This document shows, one piece after another, positions 48,279 to 58,582 of a DNA stretch of 58,859 nucleotides. Each line of letters starts with the position of its first letter. The first letter of the stretch is position 1. Origin of the DNA: Nitrosomonas sp. (GTDB taxonomy: Bacteria; Pseudomonadota; Gammaproteobacteria; Burkholderiales; Nitrosomonadaceae); NCBI GenBank assembly GCA_017984435.1, contig JAGNZK010000012.1, positions 1 to 58,859 of the forward strand. The letters are read 5' to 3'. Both the position numbers and the translations under genes were made by a program. A model generated the notes under the pieces. That model ran no database searches and was not told the DNA's origin. It was given only the letters and a program-made list of their open reading frames with translations.

Positions 48279-48298
48279 ACATACCATTTATGGTATGT
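48279..48298. promoter_or_regulatory. Palindromic operator at the toxin start
   Basis: ACATACCA-TTTA-TGGTATGT, perfect 8-bp arms, covers the toxin ATG (48295) and follows a TTGACA. This is where HigA-like antitoxins bind to shut off their own operon. The overlap with the start codon leaves no good ribosome site for the toxin, which is unusual. Confidence 0.6.
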
Positions 48299-48579
48299 GG
48301 AAAGTTTATGAACATAAACGAATTGAAAAGCAATTAAAATCATGCCCCATTACAATATTGAAGAAGTATGAGAAATGGAAAGATATTGTCATAATTTCCG
48401 GTCAGCAAGGGCTATCACTGATTAAGGGTTTTTCTGATGAAGCATTAAAAGGCGAATGGGATGGTTACCGATCTTCACGGTTAAACCAGCAATATCGAGT
48501 CATTTATAAAATTATCGCCAATGAAGTTTATGTGCAAGTTGAGCAAATATCACCCCACGATTATCGGAGAAAAAAATGA
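48295..48579 (+). CDS. higB: HigB/RelE-family toxin
   Basis: 94 aa: MWKVYEHKRIEKQLKSCP, GLSLIKGFSDEALKGEWDGYRSSRL and QQYRVIYKI are typical of HigB-like mRNA interferases of the RelE fold. It overlaps the antitoxin gene by 4 bp (ATGA). It acts by cutting mRNA on ribosomes when not bound by the antitoxin. Confidence 0.85.
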   Translation: MWKVYEHKRIEKQLKSCPITILKKYEKWKDIVIISGQQGLSLIKGFSDEALKGEWDGYRSSRLNQQYRVIYKIIANEVYVQVEQISPHDYRRKK

Positions 48580-48830
48580 ATGAATATCAACTGGCAAAAA
48601 AAACATGTGATGTTACCGTTGGTGAATCCGTAAAAATTATTCGCGAGCTTCAGGGATTAAGCCAAAACGAATTAGCAGAACTGACCGGTATTCCGCAATC
48701 GACAATCTCTGCCATCGAGCACAACAAAATCAATTTAGGGATAGAACGCGCAAAAATAATAGCAAAAGCACTGAAATGTCACCCTGCGGTATTGGTTTTT
48801 CCTGGGTGGAGTGTTGAGGTTGCTGCATAG
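48576..48830 (+). CDS. higA: HigA/XRE-family antitoxin
   Basis: 84 aa, HTH_3 domain over residues about 18-72 (IIRELQGLSQNELAELTGIPQSTISAIEHNKINLGIERAKIIAKAL). It neutralises the toxin and presumably binds the palindrome at 48279-48298. Confidence 0.87.
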   Translation: MNEYQLAKKTCDVTVGESVKIIRELQGLSQNELAELTGIPQSTISAIEHNKINLGIERAKIIAKALKCHPAVLVFPGWSVEVAA

Positions 48831-49026: not shown

Positions 49027-49713
49027 CTAGCCATTTGCCAGAGCTTTAATATGCTTTGAGATGGCGCGTCTTTGCTTTTGCACAACTGGAAGAAGGGCTG
49101 TGTATGTCTGTAACTGCCCTTCCTTGAACTTCTTATAGATTTCCTTTTGCTTTCCGAGCAACTCGCTATATCGCCCCGCCTGTTGGTCTAGAGGTGTATT
49201 CAACAGCATATGATTCACTTCTAAGACAATCTCCTCGATTTCGAAAGTCATCTGTTGCGCATGAGCTTGAAATTTGAGCGTCTCGATAACCAGTGGGCCG
49301 TGCTGCGATTGAATATCTTCATTTTCCACGAACAGCTCCATCTTCCCGGCGGCAAGGTCAAAATCTTGATGAAGCATATCCAGTTGAGATCGGATTTCTG
49401 CCGATCGAGACGGGTTGTCTTTGGTGATGCCTACGGCACTGCAGTTAGTAATGGCTGATAACCAGGCCGAATACTTCGAGAAATAGTCGATTAGCGTTTG
49501 ATGCTCTTCTGCCCTTAGGCTGAGTTTGGCCTGTAGGGAGAACTGTAGCTGCGATTTGACTGCTTCGACCAACGACGTAATTTCTTCAATGTCCTCCTTC
49601 GTAGCGACATTCTTACCTTTTTCCTGAAAGTAAGACTTTAGAAATACCATATAGAACAGAAGCAGTAGGATGAGCGCTTCCAGCACTAGCTGAATGGATT
49701 CGGTGACAGACAT
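49027..49713 (-). CDS. Membrane-anchored coiled-coil protein of unknown function
   Basis: 228 aa: one N-terminal transmembrane helix (about 8-27, LVLEALILLLLFYMVFLKSYF), then KGKNVATKEDIEEITSLVEAVKSQL, a phrase found in many single-TM hypothetical proteins, and a long helical cytoplasmic part with conserved HQTLIDYFSKYSAW. No catalytic motif is seen. The location between a toxin-antitoxin pair and the guanidine operon and its lone status suggest accessory DNA. Confidence 0.65.
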   Translation of the reverse strand: MSVTESIQLVLEALILLLLFYMVFLKSYFQEKGKNVATKEDIEEITSLVEAVKSQLQFSLQAKLSLRAEEHQTLIDYFSKYSAWLSAITNCSAVGITKDNPSRSAEIRSQLDMLHQDFDLAAGKMELFVENEDIQSQHGPLVIETLKFQAHAQQMTFEIEEIVLEVNHMLLNTPLDQQAGRYSELLGKQKEIYKKFKEGQLQTYTALLPVVQKQRRAISKHIKALANG

Positions 49714-50068
49714 CAGGTGATCGTAGTTGTTAAGGTTGCATAACTAGAATTAGACGTCCGAAATGACGCAATATATTACGTCACAAATGAAACCTAATAC
49801 GGCATTGATCATGATATCCCCTTATTTTTAAGCTAATTGACCGATTTAGCTGTCATCATACTACCAGACTTGTTTAGACCAAAAATATTGAGTGAATAAC
49901 AGCAATACGTTGTAATCAAGTTCTGCAGTTCACATATCAAAACAAGCAATAGCACAATCTCCAAAACCATTGCTTTTTCCAAATCACACAGTTAGAATCC
50001 CACCCGTTACTCGCTTTTTGAAATGCTAATTGAACGATTGATGGCATAGCAACTCAAAAAACAGTATT

Positions 50069-50172
50069 CAATGGGAAACTAGGGTTCCGTCCGGTGCAGT
50101 CACCGGTGTCTGGTCCAAGAGTTTCCGGTCTCGTGATAATGAGGCTCCACGGAGGGATAAAAGCCCGGGAGG
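50069..50172 (+). ncRNA. Guanidine-I (ykkC) riboswitch
   Basis: The conserved parts of the class occur in order: CTAGGGTTCCG (50079-50089), CTGGTCCAAGAG (50110-50121), and ACGGAGGGATAAAAGCCCGGGAGG (50149-50172, the most conserved stretch). Together with the paired GTCCGG/CCGGTG region they define a ykkC-type guanidine-I aptamer. It lies 64 bp before the permease gene and should switch the operon on when guanidine is bound. Confidence 0.93.
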
Positions 50173-50176
50173 TTAC

Positions 50177-50201
50177 GTAATGTAGTATTTTGATACATTA
50201 C
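50177..50201 (+). promoter_or_regulatory. Hairpin in the riboswitch expression platform
   Basis: Perfect 8-bp stem GTAATGTA/TACATTAC with a 9-nt loop directly after the aptamer. It is not followed by a T-run, so it does not look like a standard terminator. Control through access to the downstream ribosome site (AGGAG, 50222-50226) is the simpler idea. Confidence 0.4.
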
Positions 50202-50235
50202 ATTCTCGGTAATAACCCGTACAGGAGACTTCGTT

Positions 50236-51675
50236 ATGTCAAAAATAACAAAACCGATCCCCCTTTCACCGGATGCCAGTGCAGTAACAGGCGATACGCT
50301 CAATCGCAGCATGAGTGTGTGGCATAGCTTTACGCTGGGTTTTGCGGTGGTATCGCCGGTGGTCGGACTTTACGCCATCATTGGTGTGCAAACCGTCGTG
50401 ACCGGTGGCGGCTGGTTTGCAGCGCTGGCGATTTGCTTGCTCATGCAGCTATTGGTAGCTACTGTTTATGCAGAGCTATCCTCACAATTTCCGATTGCCG
50501 GCGGTGCCTATAAATGGGCACGGCAACTCGGTGGCACCGTAGCCGGGCAGTACGCGGGCGTCATTTATATTTGCTCCACCATCGCCATGCTGACAACAAC
50601 GGCTTATACCGGCGGTTTCTGGCTTGCCACTTTTTGCGGATTACCAAGTAACGACGGTGGCATGATGGTATTGTGGGGTGCGATATTTTTGTTTATCTGC
50701 ACACTGCTTAATTTGGCGCATGTCAGTGTTTTCCAGTTTGTGATCAAATCAGGCGTGTATGCAGAAGTCGTCGGTTCCTTGGGCATCGCATTCTTGTTAA
50801 TCGTGTTTTTCCGCCAACATTCCGTGCTGGAATTGTTTCAGCATATGGGCACGGGAACAGCACCGACTGAAACAGCCGCTTTTTTCGCAGCGCTCGCCAT
50901 TGCTGGCTGGGCTTTCATCGGTTTTGACGCTTGCTCCACCACGGCGGAAGAAACACACAACCCCAAACGCATGGTGCCACGTGCAGTTTTCCTTTCCCTA
51001 CTCGTTGTCGGCACAGTGGTCTTGTTTAATTCCGCTTCACTGATTCTGGCCTTTGATCATGACACACTGAGAAACGCCAGCAGTACTTCCGATCCTGTTA
51101 CACCCTTGATTGCCAGCAGCATCGGGGATTGGTTTGAGAAACCCTTTTTAGCCATTGTAATGACTGCGTTTCTCGCCTGCGGTGCGTCGGTAGTCAAATA
51201 TACCTCGCGCATTGTTTACTCCATGGCACGGGAAGGCAATATGCCCGCTCTACTAAGCCAGGTCACAACCAGTAAAACCCCGCGCAATGCCATTTTGTTC
51301 ACGGTATCACTAGCCGGTTGCGGCTTGATATTCGGATTAAACGGTGACGCGGTGGCAACCATCATCGCCTTCGGCACCGGCGGTTTATACGCCATGTTCA
51401 CTTTCACCACCGGAATCGGACTATTTGCCCGCCTCACCGGTCGTTGGAATCCTGCACTGGGTGAATTAAAACTGGGCGTATGGGGATTGATCATCAATAG
51501 TTTGGCGTTTATCTGGTCATTATTTGAGCTCATTAACATTGCCTGGCCGCGCCCTTATGCGATTTCAGCCGATGCACCCTGGTGGCAATTATGGGCAACG
51601 CCACTGGTACTCGGCAGTCTGTTGACGATCACCACACTGTATATCCTTTACAAAAAATGGGTAAGCGCCAAGTAA
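50236..51675 (+). CDS. APC-family permease, likely guanidine importer
   Basis: 479 aa with about 12 transmembrane helices, of the amino acid-polyamine-organocation family: SVWHSFTLGFAVVSPVVGLYA, GGWFAALAICLLMQLLVATVYAELSSQFPIAGGAYKWAR and IAGWAFIGFDACSTTAEETHNPKRMVPRA. Being the first gene after a guanidine-I riboswitch and before catabolic genes, it is best read as a guanidine (or guanidinium-compound) uptake protein and not an exporter. The substrate is inference from context. Confidence 0.85.
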   Translation: MSKITKPIPLSPDASAVTGDTLNRSMSVWHSFTLGFAVVSPVVGLYAIIGVQTVVTGGGWFAALAICLLMQLLVATVYAELSSQFPIAGGAYKWARQLGGTVAGQYAGVIYICSTIAMLTTTAYTGGFWLATFCGLPSNDGGMMVLWGAIFLFICTLLNLAHVSVFQFVIKSGVYAEVVGSLGIAFLLIVFFRQHSVLELFQHMGTGTAPTETAAFFAALAIAGWAFIGFDACSTTAEETHNPKRMVPRAVFLSLLVVGTVVLFNSASLILAFDHDTLRNASSTSDPVTPLIASSIGDWFEKPFLAIVMTAFLACGASVVKYTSRIVYSMAREGNMPALLSQVTTSKTPRNAILFTVSLAGCGLIFGLNGDAVATIIAFGTGGLYAMFTFTTGIGLFARLTGRWNPALGELKLGVWGLIINSLAFIWSLFELINIAWPRPYAISADAPWWQLWATPLVLGSLLTITTLYILYKKWVSAK

Positions 51676-51699
51676 CATTGTCTTAACAAGGAGTTCATC

Positions 51700-52431
51700 A
51701 TGAATCAACCCAACACATTAATTTGGAATCAATCCATTCCCGGCGGATGCCATTGGTCCGGCATCCTGCGTCGTGGTACCACATTACGTCTGACCGATGT
51801 GCACGGCGGTGCGAATGCCGCGGTACTGTTCTTTAATCAGGAAGAAAAGCTCGAACGCTACAATATGGCGGATACATTGAAATCGCAGCATACTTTCCGC
51901 CTGACCCAAGGCCATGCGTGCCATTCGGACATGGGACGGATTTTCTGTTGCATCACGGCGGATACCGCCGGTTGGAACGATACTGTGTGCGGATTGAGCG
52001 ATGCCAAATTGATACAACAGAAATACGGCGTTGCACGCTATCAGGAGCATCGTAATCAAATGTTCCGCAGCGGCCTGGACGGCATGCTGATCGAACTGGG
52101 CAAATGGGGATTGGGGATGCGTGACATTGTGTCCAATATTAATTTCTTCAGTAAAGTCACTGCTGACGCGAATGGTAAATTGACATTTCATGCCGGCAAC
52201 AGCAAAGCGGACGATCATGTTGATCTGAGTTTTGAGATGGATACCTTAGTCATCCTCTCGGCTGCCCCGCATCCACTGGATACAAAGCCAACCTACCAGC
52301 CCGGCGCTGTCGACTTGGCGGCATTTGTAACATCCGTCGCAGCAGTATTGACATGCCAGCAGATTGCCGAGAATGTCAGAGGATTACACAACACTCACCG
52401 GTTCAATCATCCCTGTGGAGGTGCGCTATGA
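51700..52431 (+). CDS. Carboxyguanidine deiminase subunit (urea carboxylase-associated protein)
   Basis: 243 aa, of the 'urea carboxylase-associated' family (DUF1989-like): [50 protein letters not shown] and [13 protein letters not shown]. In guanidine-using bacteria two such paralogues form the deiminase that converts carboxyguanidine to allophanate and ammonia. Its stop overlaps the next ATG by 4 bp (ATGA, 52428-52431), a sign of balanced expression of the two subunits. Confidence 0.88.
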
Positions 52432-53093
52432 ATACGCAACAATTTGTAGCTAGCAAACTTAATCCTGATCTCGCCGTAGTCGATGAAATTTGTGCAGCCG
52501 GCGAGCCCTGGGTCGGCATCGTCAAACAAGGACAAACTTTCCGTATCGTTGATGTAGAAGGCAATCAAGCCGTCGATACGCTGTTTTTCAATGCCAGCCA
52601 CGCCTTGGAACGTTATAGTGCCACCGACACCATTCGCGCGCAGAATAAGTTATATCTGACTACCGGCAGCAAACTTTGCTCCAATTTTGGCAATACCATG
52701 CTCACGATTGTGGCGGATACCTGTGGGCGCCATGATACATTGGGCGGTGCCTGTGCGGCGGAAAGCAATACGGTACGCTATGCGCTGGAAAAATATCCGA
52801 TGCATAGCTGCCGGGATAATTTTCTGCATGCACTGACCCATGAAGCAGTTTGTGAGCAACTGGGCATGAGCAAGCGCGATATACCCAGCAACATCAATTT
52901 TTTCATGAATGTGCCTGTCACTGAAGCAGGTGGCTTGGAATTTGTCGATGGTGTTTCGGCACCAGGGAAATACGTCGAAATGCAGGCTGACATGGATGTA
53001 TTGGTATTGATCTCGAATTGTCCGCAACTCAACAATCCATGCAATGCCTATAATCCGACACCGATCCGGTTATTAATCTGGGATTCCCAATAA
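52428..53093 (+). CDS. Carboxyguanidine deiminase subunit (second paralogue)
   Basis: 221 aa from ATG 52428, which overlaps the previous stop. An alternative start 75 bp upstream adds residues without homology. Same fold as its neighbour: [65 protein letters not shown] and [13 protein letters not shown]. Conserved Cys and His residues (CGRHD, HSCRDNF) suggest the catalytic or metal-binding side of the heteromer. Confidence 0.88.
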
Positions 53094-53138
53094 ACGGATA
53101 AGTCCAATTGATGATTCATCAAGAAAAAGGATAACGCT

Positions 53139-56100
53139 ATGTTCGATAAAGTATTGATTGCCAATCGCGGTGCCATTGCTTGCCGGATTATCCGCACGCT
53201 GCGCCGCATGCAGGTCAAAAGTATCGCCGTTTATACCGAAGCCGATGCGTTATCCCGGCATGTCACCGAAGCCGATGAAGCCTATCGCATCGGCAGCGGG
53301 CTCGCGGCTGAAAGCTATTTGCGCACCGACAAAATCCTGAAAATCGCTCAGCAAACTGGTGCGCAAGCGATTCATCCGGGTTATGGTTTCCTGAGTGAGA
53401 AAGCCGATTTTGCCGCGCAATGCGCTACGCATGGCATCTGTTTTATCGGCCCGACGCCGCAGCAAATGCGCGACTTTGGTTTAAAACACACGGCGCGCGC
53501 CTTGGCATTGGAAAATCAAGTACCGCTGCTGCCGGGAACCGGTTTGTTGGAAGATCTGAATGATGCTTGCCATCAAGCCAAGCATATCGGCTATCCCGTC
53601 ATGTTGAAAAGCACCGCTGGCGGTGGCGGCATCGGCATGCGTTTGTGCTGGAACCAGGATGAATTGGTCAGTGCCTACGAATCGGTCAAAACACTGGCAC
53701 AAAACAATTTCAAGGATGCCGGTTTATTCCTGGAAAAATTTGTCGACCGGGCGCGTCATATCGAAGTGCAAATTTTCGGTGACGGCAAAGGCCAAGTCGT
53801 TGCGTTGGGTGAACGTGATTGCTCCATGCAACGGCGCAACCAAAAAGTCATCGAAGAAACACCTGCTCCCAATCTAGCACCGCATCTACGCCAGGCATTA
53901 CTGGATACGGCGATACGCCTTGGTAAAGCCGTCAACTATCAATCTGCCGGCACGGTTGAATACATTTTCGATGATGCCAATGGTCAATTTTATTTTCTCG
54001 AAGTCAATACCCGCCTGCAAGTCGAGCATGGCGTAACGGAAGAAGTCACCGGCATTGACCTGGTGGAATGGATGGTGCGGCAAGCCGCAGGCGATCTGCC
54101 TTCGCTGGATTCTTTCACCATCAAACCTAGTGGCGCATCCATTCAGGTGCGGGTGTATGCCGAAAATCCCGCCAAAGATTTTCAACCTTCCAGCGGCACA
54201 CTCACTGCAGCGGAATTTTCCACCGCAGCGCGCGTTGAAACCTGGATCGAGCGCGGCATTGAAGTATCCGCGTTTTATGACCCGATGCTGGCCAAGATCA
54301 TCGTACACGCACCAGAGCGCGAAACCGCTATTGCCAAGCTATTGACCGCATTAGACAACACATCGCTACAAGGCATTGAAACCAATCTAACCTATCTCAA
54401 ACAGATTCTGCACAGCGCGGTGTTCCGCAACGGACAATCGAACACGCAATTTCTTAATGGCTTCCACTATCAACCGCACAGTATCGATGTTCTGAATGCC
54501 GGCGTGCAAACCATGGTACAGGATTACCCCGGACGGATCGGCTACTGGCATGTGGGTGTTCCACCTTCCGGACCGATGGATAGCCTTGCTTTTCGTCTGG
54601 CTAATCAATTGGTCAACAACCCGGAAGATAGTGCCGGATTGGAAATCACGCTGGCTGGCCCAACACTACGCTTTAATTGCGACAGCATCATCGCGATCTG
54701 CGGCGCACCTATTGATGTGTTTCTAGACAGCGAACCATTGCCGCAATGGCAATCCCATACCGTCAAAGCCGGTGCGCTCGTGCAGTTTGGAAAAATCAAG
54801 CAGTCTGGCAGTCGGGCTTATTTGGCCGTGTACGGTGGTTTTCAGGTACCCGATTATCTGGGTAGCAAATCCACCTTTACGCTCGGTCAGTTTGGCGGAC
54901 ATGCGGGACGCGTGTTGCGTGCCGGTGATGTCTTGCATGTTCAACCGCTGCCAGTTTCCCAACCGGCACCGCGGCATTTGCCGCAACAATGGGCGCCGCT
55001 GTATACGAATCAATGGGAAATCGCCGTACTGTACGGTCCTCACGGTGCGCCGGATTTCTTTACCGAAGCGGACATTGAACAGTTTTTTGCCGCCGAGTGG
55101 AAGGTGCATCATAACTCCAGCCGTACCGGCGTGCGCCTGATCGGCCCCAAGCCGCAATGGGCGCGTAGCGATGGCGGCGAAGCCGGCTTGCATCCATCCA
55201 ATATTCACGATAACGCCTATGCCATCGGCGCCGTCGATTTTACCGGGGATATGCCGATTATCCTGGGCCCTGACGGCCCCAGCCTGGGTGGTTTCGTTTG
55301 CCCGGTCACGATCGTGCAGGCGGAATTGTGGAAAATCGGACAACTCAAACCCGGTGACAGTATCCACTTTTATCCGATATCCATGGAACAAGCGCTCGCA
55401 TTGGAACAACAACAGAACCAGCTGATTCAGCATCTTCAGGCAGATGCAAGCCCATCAATAGTTTCTCGATCCGGAAAACCAGGTAGTCCCATTCTACACT
55501 CCATTCCGGAAAACACGGCACAAGTACAAGTCACATATCGCCAATCCGGCGATAAGTACCTGTTGATCGAATATGGGCCGCCGGTACTCGATCTGAATTT
55601 GCGCTTCCGTGCGCATGCACTGATGACGTGGCTGCAGCAACGCATTAACGACGGTGAGCTTTCTGGCATTCTGGATCTGACACCCGGCATCCGCTCGCTG
55701 CAGATTCACTTTGATTCACGCCAACTGGCACGCGAAAAATTGCTGGCGCTGCTGATCGCAGGAGAGAATCAATTGCCCGCGATTGATGATATGGAAACAC
55801 CATCCCGCATCATCCACTTGCCTTTATCCTGGGATGACGCCGCCACGCGGTTGGCTATCGAGAAATATATGCAATCGGTGCGCAGCGATGCACCCTGGTG
55901 CCCGAGCAATATTGAATTTATCCGCCGCATCAACGGCCTGAAAAGCATCGAAGAAGTTCAGCATATCGTATTTGCAGCCAGCTACCTGGTCATGGGACTG
56001 GGCGATGTCTATCTGGGTGCACCCGTAGCGACTCCGCTGGATCCGCGGCATCGTCTGGTCACCACCAAATACAATCCGGCGCGCACCTGGACTCCCGAAA

Positions 56101-56765
56101 ATGCCGTCGGTATCGGTGGCGCCTATTTATGCGTATACGGTATGGAAGGTCCGGGCGGCTATCAGTTCGTCGGACGTACCGTGCCGATGTGGAATCGCTA
56201 CCGCCAGACCGCCGACTTCAAGGATGGTCAACCGTGGTTATTACGCTTCTTTGATCAAATCCGTTTCTATCCGGTCAGTGAGAGCGAATTGCTCAAGCTG
56301 CGCAAGGATTTCATCAGCGGGCACTTCAGATTGCGCACGGAGGAAACGACTCTCAACCTGAAACAGTACCATGCCTTCCTGCAACAACATGCCGCCAGCA
56401 TCAGCACATTCAAAACCCGGCAACAGACTGCGTTTGAAGCCGAACGGCAACGTTGGGAAGCCAATGGTCAATCGCAATATGTCAGTGAAGATACGCTCGA
56501 TGAAGCGGATACCCAAAGTGAACTGGATTTGCCGGAAGGTGCACAAGCCATCAGCTCACAGGTAACCGGCACCGTGTGGAAGCTGCTGGTCAAAGAAGGT
56601 GAATTTGTGGAAGCAGGCAAACCGCTAGTCATGATTGAGTCGATGAAAATGGAATTCCCAGTGGATTCGCCCATTGCCGGCACGGTACGGCAATTATTCT
56701 GTAAACAAGGCGGATATGTCTCTGCCGGGCAGGCGCTCTTGATCATCCAGAAAAACCCGTCATGA
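53139..56765 (+). CDS. Guanidine carboxylase (urea carboxylase family, biotin-dependent)
   Basis: 1208 aa. Biotin carboxylase domain (1-445; [21 protein letters not shown]-grasp GGGGIGMR, active-site [17 protein letters not shown]), carboxyltransferase halves like KipA/AHS2 (about 450-770; [21 protein letters not shown]) and KipI/AHS1 (about 790-1020; [20 protein letters not shown]), and a C-terminal biotinyl domain with biotin-Lys K1170 in ESMKMEFP. Databases call it urea carboxylase, but riboswitch and deiminase genes show that guanidine is the probable substrate: guanidine + HCO3- + ATP to carboxyguanidine. Its stop overlaps the atzF start (ATGA). Confidence 0.9.
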
Positions 56766-58582
56766 TGCACAAGCTTCTCCCGCTGGGTGATATGCCATCT
56801 TTGCTGCAATGCTACGCAGACAATGCGTTATCACCTACCGAAATGGTCGAAATAATTCATGCCGAAATTCAAAAGGACCCGGATCATGCGTGGATTACCA
56901 CACTGCCATTGGCATCCTTGCAAGTCTACGCTCGTAAGGTGGAAGCACAAGGTATGGCAGCGCTGCCGCTATATGGCGTACCCTTCGCCATCAAAGATAA
57001 TATTGATTTGGCGAGCATCCCCACTACAGCCGCTTGTCCGGCTTTTGCCTACACCCCAGCGCGTAGCGCAACGGTCGTACAAAAATTGATCGATGCCGGC
57101 GCCATTCCGATCGGCAAAACCAACCTCGATCAGTTCGCCACCGGATTGAATGGTACACGATCGCCGTATGGTGCGTGCCGCAATGCCTTCAATCCCGAGT
57201 ATATTTCCGGCGGCTCCAGTTCAGGCTCGGCGGTCACCGTGGCTAAGGGGCAGGTATGTTTCAGCCTCGGCACCGATACTGCGGGTTCCGGCAGAGTTCC
57301 CGCCGCATTTAACAACCTGATCGGCTATAAGCCCACTAAAGGCTGGCTTTCGGCAAATGGCATGGTACCCGCCTGCCGTTCCCTCGATACGGTATCTATC
57401 TTCGCGCATACTGCAGCCGATGCAGCACGCATCCTGACTATTTCCGCCGCTTACGACGCAGAAGATAGGTATTCCAGAGAAAGAGAGGGGCATGGCTTTG
57501 ATTTTGGCGCTGCACCCCGTTTTCGTTTTGGCATCCCGCGTCAACAGCAACTGAAATTTTTTGATAATCATGACAGCGAACGACTGTTCAATGACGCAGT
57601 AGCCCACATGCGGGTACTGGGCGGAGAAGCTATCGAAATAGATTTCGAACCGTTTCTCGAAGCCGCCCGCCTCCTGTACGAAGGCCCCTGGGTGGCGGAA
57701 CGTTATGCAGCCATGCAATCATTCTTCGAGCTGCATAGCGATCAAATCATCACACCAGTGCGTGAAATCATCGCAACCGCCAAACAGCGCTCAGCTGCGG
57801 ATGCTTTCAATGGCATCTATCAATTACGCCGAATCAAACAACAGGCAGATCAGATTTGGACACAAGTCGATTGTTTGCTGACACCGACCGCCGGCACGAT
57901 CTATTCCATTCAAACCATGCAACAAGATCCCGTCCGTCTCAATACCAATCTGGGCTATTACACCAATTTCATGAATTTGCTCGACTATGCCGCAGTCGCC
58001 GTTCCTGCCGGTTTTCAAAGTGATGGTCTGCCTTTTGGTATCACGCTGGCGGCACCGGCCCACCAGGATGAACCACTGCTGCATCTTGCGCATCGACTGC
58101 AACAAGTCTATTCACTGCCACTGGGTGCAACCGGCATCGCGTTGCCCCGGGATATCTCCTTCCCTGCTGCATCCCGATCCGGTCAGGTACGGATAACTGT
58201 GTGTGGCGCACATTTATCCGGTCTGCCATTGAATGAACAATTAACCAGCCGACAGGGCCAATTAGTCACCAGTACCACGACCTCATCGAATTACAAGCTT
58301 TATGCACTACCCGGCCCCTCACCACTGCGTCCCGGATTAATCCGGGTTAACGAAAATGAGCAAGGCACTACCATCGAAGTGGAAGTCTGGGAGTTACCGG
58401 CACGCGAATTCGGCGGTTTTGTGGCCAATATCCCGGCACCGCTAGGCATTGGCACCATTACCCTGGCAAACGGTGAAACCGTGCAAGGTTTTCTCTGCGA
58501 GCGTTATGCCGTCGGCAATGCAACGGACATCAGTCATTTGGGTGGTTGGCGCAACTACCTGCGACAACGCGACAATCCGTAA
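56762..58582 (+). CDS. atzF: Allophanate hydrolase
   Basis: 606 aa. An amidase-signature domain (about 1-440) with catalytic triad K78 (PFAIKDN), S152 (GGSSSGSA) and S176 ([10 protein letters not shown]), at the same spacing as in AtzF, and a C-terminal domain (about 445-606; [30 protein letters not shown]) that decarboxylates the intermediate. It converts allophanate to two NH3 and two CO2. This is the last step of the operon and overlaps the carboxylase gene by 4 bp. Confidence 0.93.

Follow-up and report, generated by a model that had tools for sequence, protein, structure and literature searches.

A guanidine carboxylase operon headed by a guanidine-I riboswitch in a Nitrosomonas draft genome, and a possible translational mode of its control

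Gene content of the operon and placement of its host

We analysed a 58,859-nucleotide stretch of a Nitrosomonas draft genome (the window), which is the whole of contig C76 (G000:C76:1-58859), and found near the contig end a guanidine-I riboswitch aptamer (RF00442) at positions 50068-50173 of the + strand, followed downstream by five open reading frames, all on the + strand. The aptamer scored 90.1 bits, with the gathering score set at 63 (E 6.4e-15), was matched over model positions 1-107 of 107 and was the sole match at E 0.001 across the genome assembly, which bears out the aptamer that an earlier note on this DNA had placed ahead of the operon. The reading frames were taken from an ORF list and assigned by NCBIfam and Pfam profile searches. 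The first (50236-51675) encodes an APC-superfamily permease (PF13520, 118.4 bits), which we propose to be the guanidine importer; its score of 147.4 bits against TIGR03428 (urea carboxylase system permease) lies below the cut-off of 740.45 bits, and the permease that the note had named as the first gene is therefore assigned to the superfamily only. Relatives carry a permease at the same place in the locus. The second and third genes encode a CgdA-type (51700-52431; TIGR03425, 327.6 bits, cut-off 205.95) and a CgdB-type (52428-53093; TIGR03424, 342 bits, cut-off 284.7) carboxyguanidine deiminase subunit, and these two adjacent PF09347 proteins, one of each type by their profile matches, identify the pair as CgdAB and agree with the two deiminase-like paralogues described before. 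The fourth gene (53139-56765) encodes a biotin-dependent guanidine carboxylase, named urea carboxylase in NCBIfam (TIGR02712, 1964.5 bits, cut-off 1303.85), and the fifth (56762-58582), which ends in a TAA stop codon, an allophanate hydrolase (TIGR02713, 813.8 bits, cut-off 511.05, profile positions 2-562 of 563); both had been anticipated. Four of the five proteins clearly exceed their family cut-offs, the permease being the exception, and the scores of the aptamer and gene matches lie so far over their thresholds that chance is ruled out. The NCBIfam names ("urea carboxylase" and "urea amidolyase associated protein") also confirm that standard annotation gives this operon urea-type labels. 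The earlier note counted three ATGA overlaps where the sequence has two: CgdA and CgdB overlap at 52428, carboxylase and hydrolase at 56762. Permease and CgdA are separated by 24 nt (51676-51699), and CgdB and the carboxylase by 45 nt (53094-53138). Upstream of the operon, at 48295-48830, a weak YafQ-like toxin match (below its cut-off) is followed by an HTH_3 protein, a possible toxin-antitoxin pair.

The closest carboxylases, among the best 80 of 491 relatives kept from a collection scan, are those of Nitrosomonas sp. Nm84 (L025) and the metagenome-assembled genome (MAG) GRE_AOB_3, both 93% identical; the loci compared throughout are the nearest ones and not a sample. A quick maximum-likelihood tree, computed from 80 of the 81 carboxylases after a length filter, groups the window with 51 other rows (Nitrosomonas, Nitrosospira, Nitrosovibrio and two relatives), and a branch with support 93 separates these 52 from Gallionellaceae, Thiobacillaceae and others. 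Model searches of the draft, which is 92% complete, gave no match for AmoA (a search run without any positive control), none for AmoB and none for HAO. Such searches detected AmoB in 42 of 61 genomes of the genus, including all 11 with four or fewer contigs (mostly as 2-3 copies, and in one, G028, as fragments only), and HAO in 5 of 13 genus genomes. The loss of multi-copy genes during draft assembly would explain the missing amo and HAO genes. As the draft yielded no amoA, amoB or HAO, a point against the assignment, nitrifier status rests on kinship: judged from its nearest carboxylases, the organism is probably the ammonia oxidiser that the earlier note suspected.

Structure of the leader and its proposed action on the permease ribosome site

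The permease gene has, by sequence, a Shine-Dalgarno (SD) motif GGAG at 50224-50227 and its ATG at 50236-50238 (together 50224-50238, + strand), which we propose as the target of the switch. In the minimum free energy (MFE) structure of the whole leader, the 3' arm and loop of aptamer helix P2 (50136-50148, + strand) form 13 pairs with 50224-50237, and this element is the proposed partner of the SD and start codon in the guanidine-free state. An expression-platform hairpin (50165-50209, + strand) pairs CCGGGAG with TTCTCGG and has the upper stem GTAATGTA/TACATTAC; its CCGGGAG is the 3' end of the aptamer and includes bases of helix P3, which the hairpin thereby takes. The whole-leader structure has an energy of -56.1 kcal/mol (z -2.34; 4 of 200 shuffles were equally stable); taken by itself, the 3' portion does not exceed its shuffles in stability (z -0.02). 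The hairpin is widespread: of the 49 rows classed as ammonia oxidisers 46 have both stems, as do 13 of the 14 remaining rows, among which the rule used places L064, a Nitrosomonas locus.

Aptamer cores numbered 63 in 59 of the 82 sources scanned, and the pairing of P2 arm and SD was analysed for 56 of them; L030, L040-, L041-, L044-, L064 and L072 (twice) were omitted for want of a clear SD or arm. The set comprised 45 loci of ammonia oxidisers with 40 distinct arm/SD pairs, and 11 leaders from other bacteria. For the 40 pairs, the mean energy of the own duplex was -14.15 kcal/mol compared with -12.79 kcal/mol (sd 0.25) for swapped partners, and none of 20000 swaps was as good. When the tails between GGAG and ATG were shuffled, the mean was -9.82 kcal/mol (sd 0.41), and none of 300 shuffles matched the own value. 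Counts of paired positions, which were made in scripts because the MAFFT alignment A1 misaligns the SD side (45 ammonia-oxidiser rows, 36 of them distinct), gave 7.28 of 8 pairs besides the trivial CUCC:GGAG, compared with 5.39 in shuffles (sd 0.13; 0/500). The fit is poorer in L023 and L031 (6 of 8 pairs) and in L044, L049 and L052 (5 of 8). Two-sided changes that keep the pairing were seen in L042 (UAGUGA/UCACUA, compared with AUAAC/GUUAU in L039, its sister in the tree), which is a long branch of unsure position, and in the Nitrosospira/Nitrosovibrio loci L029, L045 and L047 (AUGAC/GUCAU, compared with AUAAC/GUUAU in Nitrosomonas); L052 keeps a GCGAG/CUCGC pairing and loses the outer pairs. 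We note that these permutation controls leave the relatedness of the leaders in place. In the 11 leaders from other bacteria, own partners were no better than swapped ones (4428 of 20000 swaps as good) and the tail shuffle gave a weaker result (1 of 300 reaches the own value); since the swap control is not significant there, we confine the P2-arm claim to ammonia oxidisers.

Accessibility was calculated for 55 rows (44 ammonia oxidisers and 11 others). Holding the aptamer apart raised the median unpaired probability of the SD in the 44 rows from 0.04 to 0.42 (higher by more than 0.2 in 33 rows, lower in 4), and with 20 nt of coding sequence added from 0.07 to 0.34 (25 higher, none lower). The cruder constraint of forcing only P2 and P3 raised it from 0.04 to 0.22, the rise exceeding 0.2 in 16 of the 44 rows. 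For the window, the SD value went from 0.00 to 0.31, or from 0.03 to 0.31 with the 20-nt extension; that of the AUG went from 0.40 to 0.93, or from 0.43 to 0.37 with the extension. Folding thus appears to lend moderate support to an opening of the SD.

In the mechanism that we propose, when guanidine is absent CCGGGAG would pair with the downstream TTCTCGG and so dissolve P3, and the P2 3' arm would mask the permease SD and start codon; when guanidine binds, the aptamer would retain P2 and P3 and the ribosome site would be exposed. Sequence features, conservation and complementarity are shown directly, whereas guanidine binding and the switch are inferred. The complementarity of P2 arm and SD in 40 distinct leaders, together with a hairpin that competes with P3, suggests translational control, and we lean towards the view that the leader acts as a translational switch of the permease gene. 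By a slightly narrower judgement, we favour its extension to the family, namely that guanidine-I of Nitrosomonadaceae may be an ON switch for translation, the P2 3' arm and loop masking SD and start codon in concert with a hairpin that takes P3 apart, and that such a platform appears to be conserved across the ammonia-oxidising lineage, unlike the transcriptional mechanism reported for the class.

A rival reading, to which we give a smaller though substantial chance, is that the riboswitch works by transcription termination and that conservation of the leader yields the P2-arm complementarity as a side effect. This would fit a review that, in its available sections, describes guanidine-I as usually acting as a transcriptional ON switch (PMC12186494); so would the conserved hairpin that follows the aptamer and, in 16 of the 40 leaders aligned, a run of four or more T lying between this hairpin and the SD. 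The window leader itself, however, lacks such a T run, and a consensus scan found no terminator-like site in 49700-50300, where shuffles average 0.5. An intrinsic terminator, which is usual for the class but does not define it, was accordingly set aside as the platform of the window leader; in the 16 leaders with a T run, termination may operate. Further, termination leaves unexplained why the SD-ATG tail complements the P2 arm far better than do its own shuffles. Among the papers listed in a literature search, and in the accessible parts of PMC12186494 and PMC7266159, no translational guanidine-I example was seen; the first description of guanidine-I (Nelson et al., 2017) lay outside this scope, and we make no claim that none is in print.

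In 11 of the loci compared (L003, L007, L010, L011, L013, L014 and L038, and the Nitrosospira/Nitrosovibrio loci L028, L031, L034 and L045), the start codon adjacent to the aptamer belongs to a short open reading frame of 55-90 codons; the start of the permease gene, by extrapolation, lies 149-303 nt farther downstream.

Carboxylase substrate, pathway and distribution in the genus

To the guanidine carboxylase of the published pathway, the available text of Palatinszky et al. (2024; PMC11410670) assigns Asp at two positions. In an ungapped alignment of a 100-residue query spanning the specificity site to K. lactis urea amidolyase (5i8i, 3va7), Asp700 of the window carboxylase (codon 55236-55238) corresponds to Asn1330 of the Kluyveromyces lactis urea carboxylase, and in a second query Asp956 (codon 56004-56006) corresponds to Asp1584. 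Both Asp residues are present in all 81 aligned carboxylases (the window and the 80 loci kept), including L029, L047 and L051, whose stretches have a permease and no CgdAB. The genome carries a urease alpha gene on another contig, C68, and urea use therefore need not rely on the operon. Together, the Asp700/Asp956 signature and the separate urease gene support guanidine, and not urea, as the probable substrate of the carboxylase, in line with the earlier note. That note had also asked for the enzyme to be placed among urea and guanidine carboxylases; the comparison of signature positions with the yeast enzyme goes part of the way, and the tree holds no bacterial urea carboxylase.

From these assignments a pathway can be proposed. 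The APC permease would import guanidinium (both substrate and transport being deduced), the biotin carboxylase would convert guanidine and ATP to carboxyguanidine, CgdAB would deiminate this, yielding NH3 and allophanate, and from the latter allophanate hydrolase would release two NH3 and CO2, giving three NH3 in total. The complete gene set upholds the prediction of three NH3 per guanidine, and the pathway is a published one (PMC11410670, available text). The ammonia would enter assimilation and, in an ammonia oxidiser, provide an extra energy supply, though guanidine-derived ammonia would probably be no replacement for ammonium. We conclude, with a probability of about 0.85 that covers operon identity and pathway, that the genes make up a Nitrosomonas operon for guanidine carboxylation and breakdown, induced by guanidine.

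Among 61 Nitrosomonas genomes, a carboxylase of this kind was seen in 58 (by a reading of the match list), the guanidine-I aptamer in 54 and urease in 37. The three genomes in which the carboxylase was not seen are G005, which has a hydrolase at a contig end, G014 and G045. Of the 10 genomes with four or fewer contigs that show the carboxylase, 7 have no allophanate hydrolase that passes its cut-off; examples of hydrolase-poor genomes in the genus are G006, G028, G029, G035, G044, G046 and G059. In Nitrosomonas genomes that lack the hydrolase, the known pathway would end at allophanate. Urease and allophanate hydrolase do not exclude each other, as a cross-count found urease in 14 of 20 genomes with the hydrolase and in 23 of 41 without it. 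The scarcity of recognisable allophanate hydrolase raises the question of the product of guanidine in the genus and may bear on its poor use by cultured ammonia-oxidising bacteria.

Several variant loci were also noted. First, 17 hydrolase-less genomes have, on a separate stretch, a match to the C-terminal part only of allophanate hydrolase; ten such stretches (L083-L092, e.g. L085:6234-6623) encode proteins of 124-162 amino acids that are 29-36% identical to the C-terminal domain of the window hydrolase, the ORF patterns around them differ, and the single protein scanned is PF21986. Second, in the N. eutropha/europaea loci (L040, L041 and L044), permease, CgdA and CgdB are divergent from the carboxylase, with an aptamer for each direction. 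Third, seven genomes (G001, G012, G017, G021, G036, G038 and G057) have a second carboxylase match, over residues 447-1205 or so, that has no biotin carboxylase domain.

As to the role of the operon, the earlier note had guanidine supplying both nitrogen and an energy substrate. A competing view, which we hold to be possible but the less probable one, is that the main function of the operon is detoxification, or nitrogen salvage on a small scale, and not energy supply. In the available text of PMC11410670, none of five ammonia-oxidising strains with the gene set used guanidine alone, and 1 mM guanidine is cited as inhibiting N. europaea; further, no more than 20 of the 61 Nitrosomonas genomes have an allophanate hydrolase that passes the cut-off, and by the known route a strain without one would free just a single NH3. 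Against this view, three of the five strains made nitrite from a fraction of the guanidine when ammonium was present (PMC11410670, same text), among them Nitrosomonas communis Nm2, which has no urease, and in the window the set is complete, hydrolase included, with a permease at the head of the operon. Tests on relatives thus support the earlier claim in part, for partial conversion alongside ammonium and not for stand-alone use, and we retain a supply of nitrogen and supplementary energy as the preferred role. That the carboxylase and hydrolase form a urea amidolyase system with an incidental riboswitch is very improbable and was rejected, as it is favoured by the urea-related protein names but conflicts with Asp in place of Asn at the specificity position, the guanidine-I aptamer immediately upstream, the two carboxyguanidine deiminase-type genes inside the operon and the separate urease gene.

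Comparison with known guanidine systems

According to the available text of Palatinszky et al. (PMC11410670), guanidine-degradation genes occur in 135 of 145 betaproteobacterial ammonia oxidisers, which use the carboxylase pathway exclusively and mostly with an APC permease, and the operon of Nitrosospira multiformis is under a guanidine-I riboswitch. The novelty that the earlier note implied for a guanidine set in a nitrifier does not hold, as the general finding was already in print. A full guanidine-to-ammonia set in a Nitrosomonas bears on organic nitrogen use by nitrifiers, a point likewise published for the guild. In the accessible part of a floodplain study, the nitrifier MAGs had no guanidine genes (PMC12625717), which counts against universality among nitrifiers. 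The genes in a study of phage-infected Nitrosomonas, whose authors, in the part available, name guanidine merely as an alternative (PMC13356812), probably belong to this operon type.

The window shares with the operons of Palatinszky et al. the guanidine-I riboswitch, the APC permease, the Asp/Asp carboxylase, CgdAB and allophanate hydrolase; by the available text of that study gene content does not differ, and the same text contains no analysis of leader switching in ammonia-oxidising bacteria (PMC11410670). With the pathway of Pseudomonas syringae and enterobacteria it has carboxylase, carboxyguanidine deiminase and allophanate hydrolase in common, but those bacteria, as far as the sources available describe them, import guanidine by ABC transporters where the window has an APC permease, and enterobacteria divide the genes between guanidine-I and guanidine-II control. 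ABC transporter components lie upstream of CgdAB in both of the non-nitrifier loci checked (Sideroxydans L053 and Thiobacillus L075). In another Thiobacillus locus, a guanidine-II riboswitch (L062:6941-6988) lies directly ahead of the carboxylase gene in a guanidine operon. Comammox Nitrospira inopinata also has a guanidine-I riboswitch before an APC permease, but it uses an ATP-free Ni guanidinase and urease, whereas the window has the ATP-dependent carboxylase route (PMC11410670, available text).

The gene set and its predicted chemistry are correct and already known for the guild, and it is the covering of the ribosome site by the leader that may be the new aspect. Compared with the guanidine-I (ykkC subtype 1) class, the RF00442 aptamer is matched over its full length, whereas the platform proposed here is translational and would use the aptamer's own P2 arm, in a class that the accessible sections of the review describe as usually transcriptional (PMC12186494). 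If the translational switch is true, it represents a second mode of control for guanidine-I.
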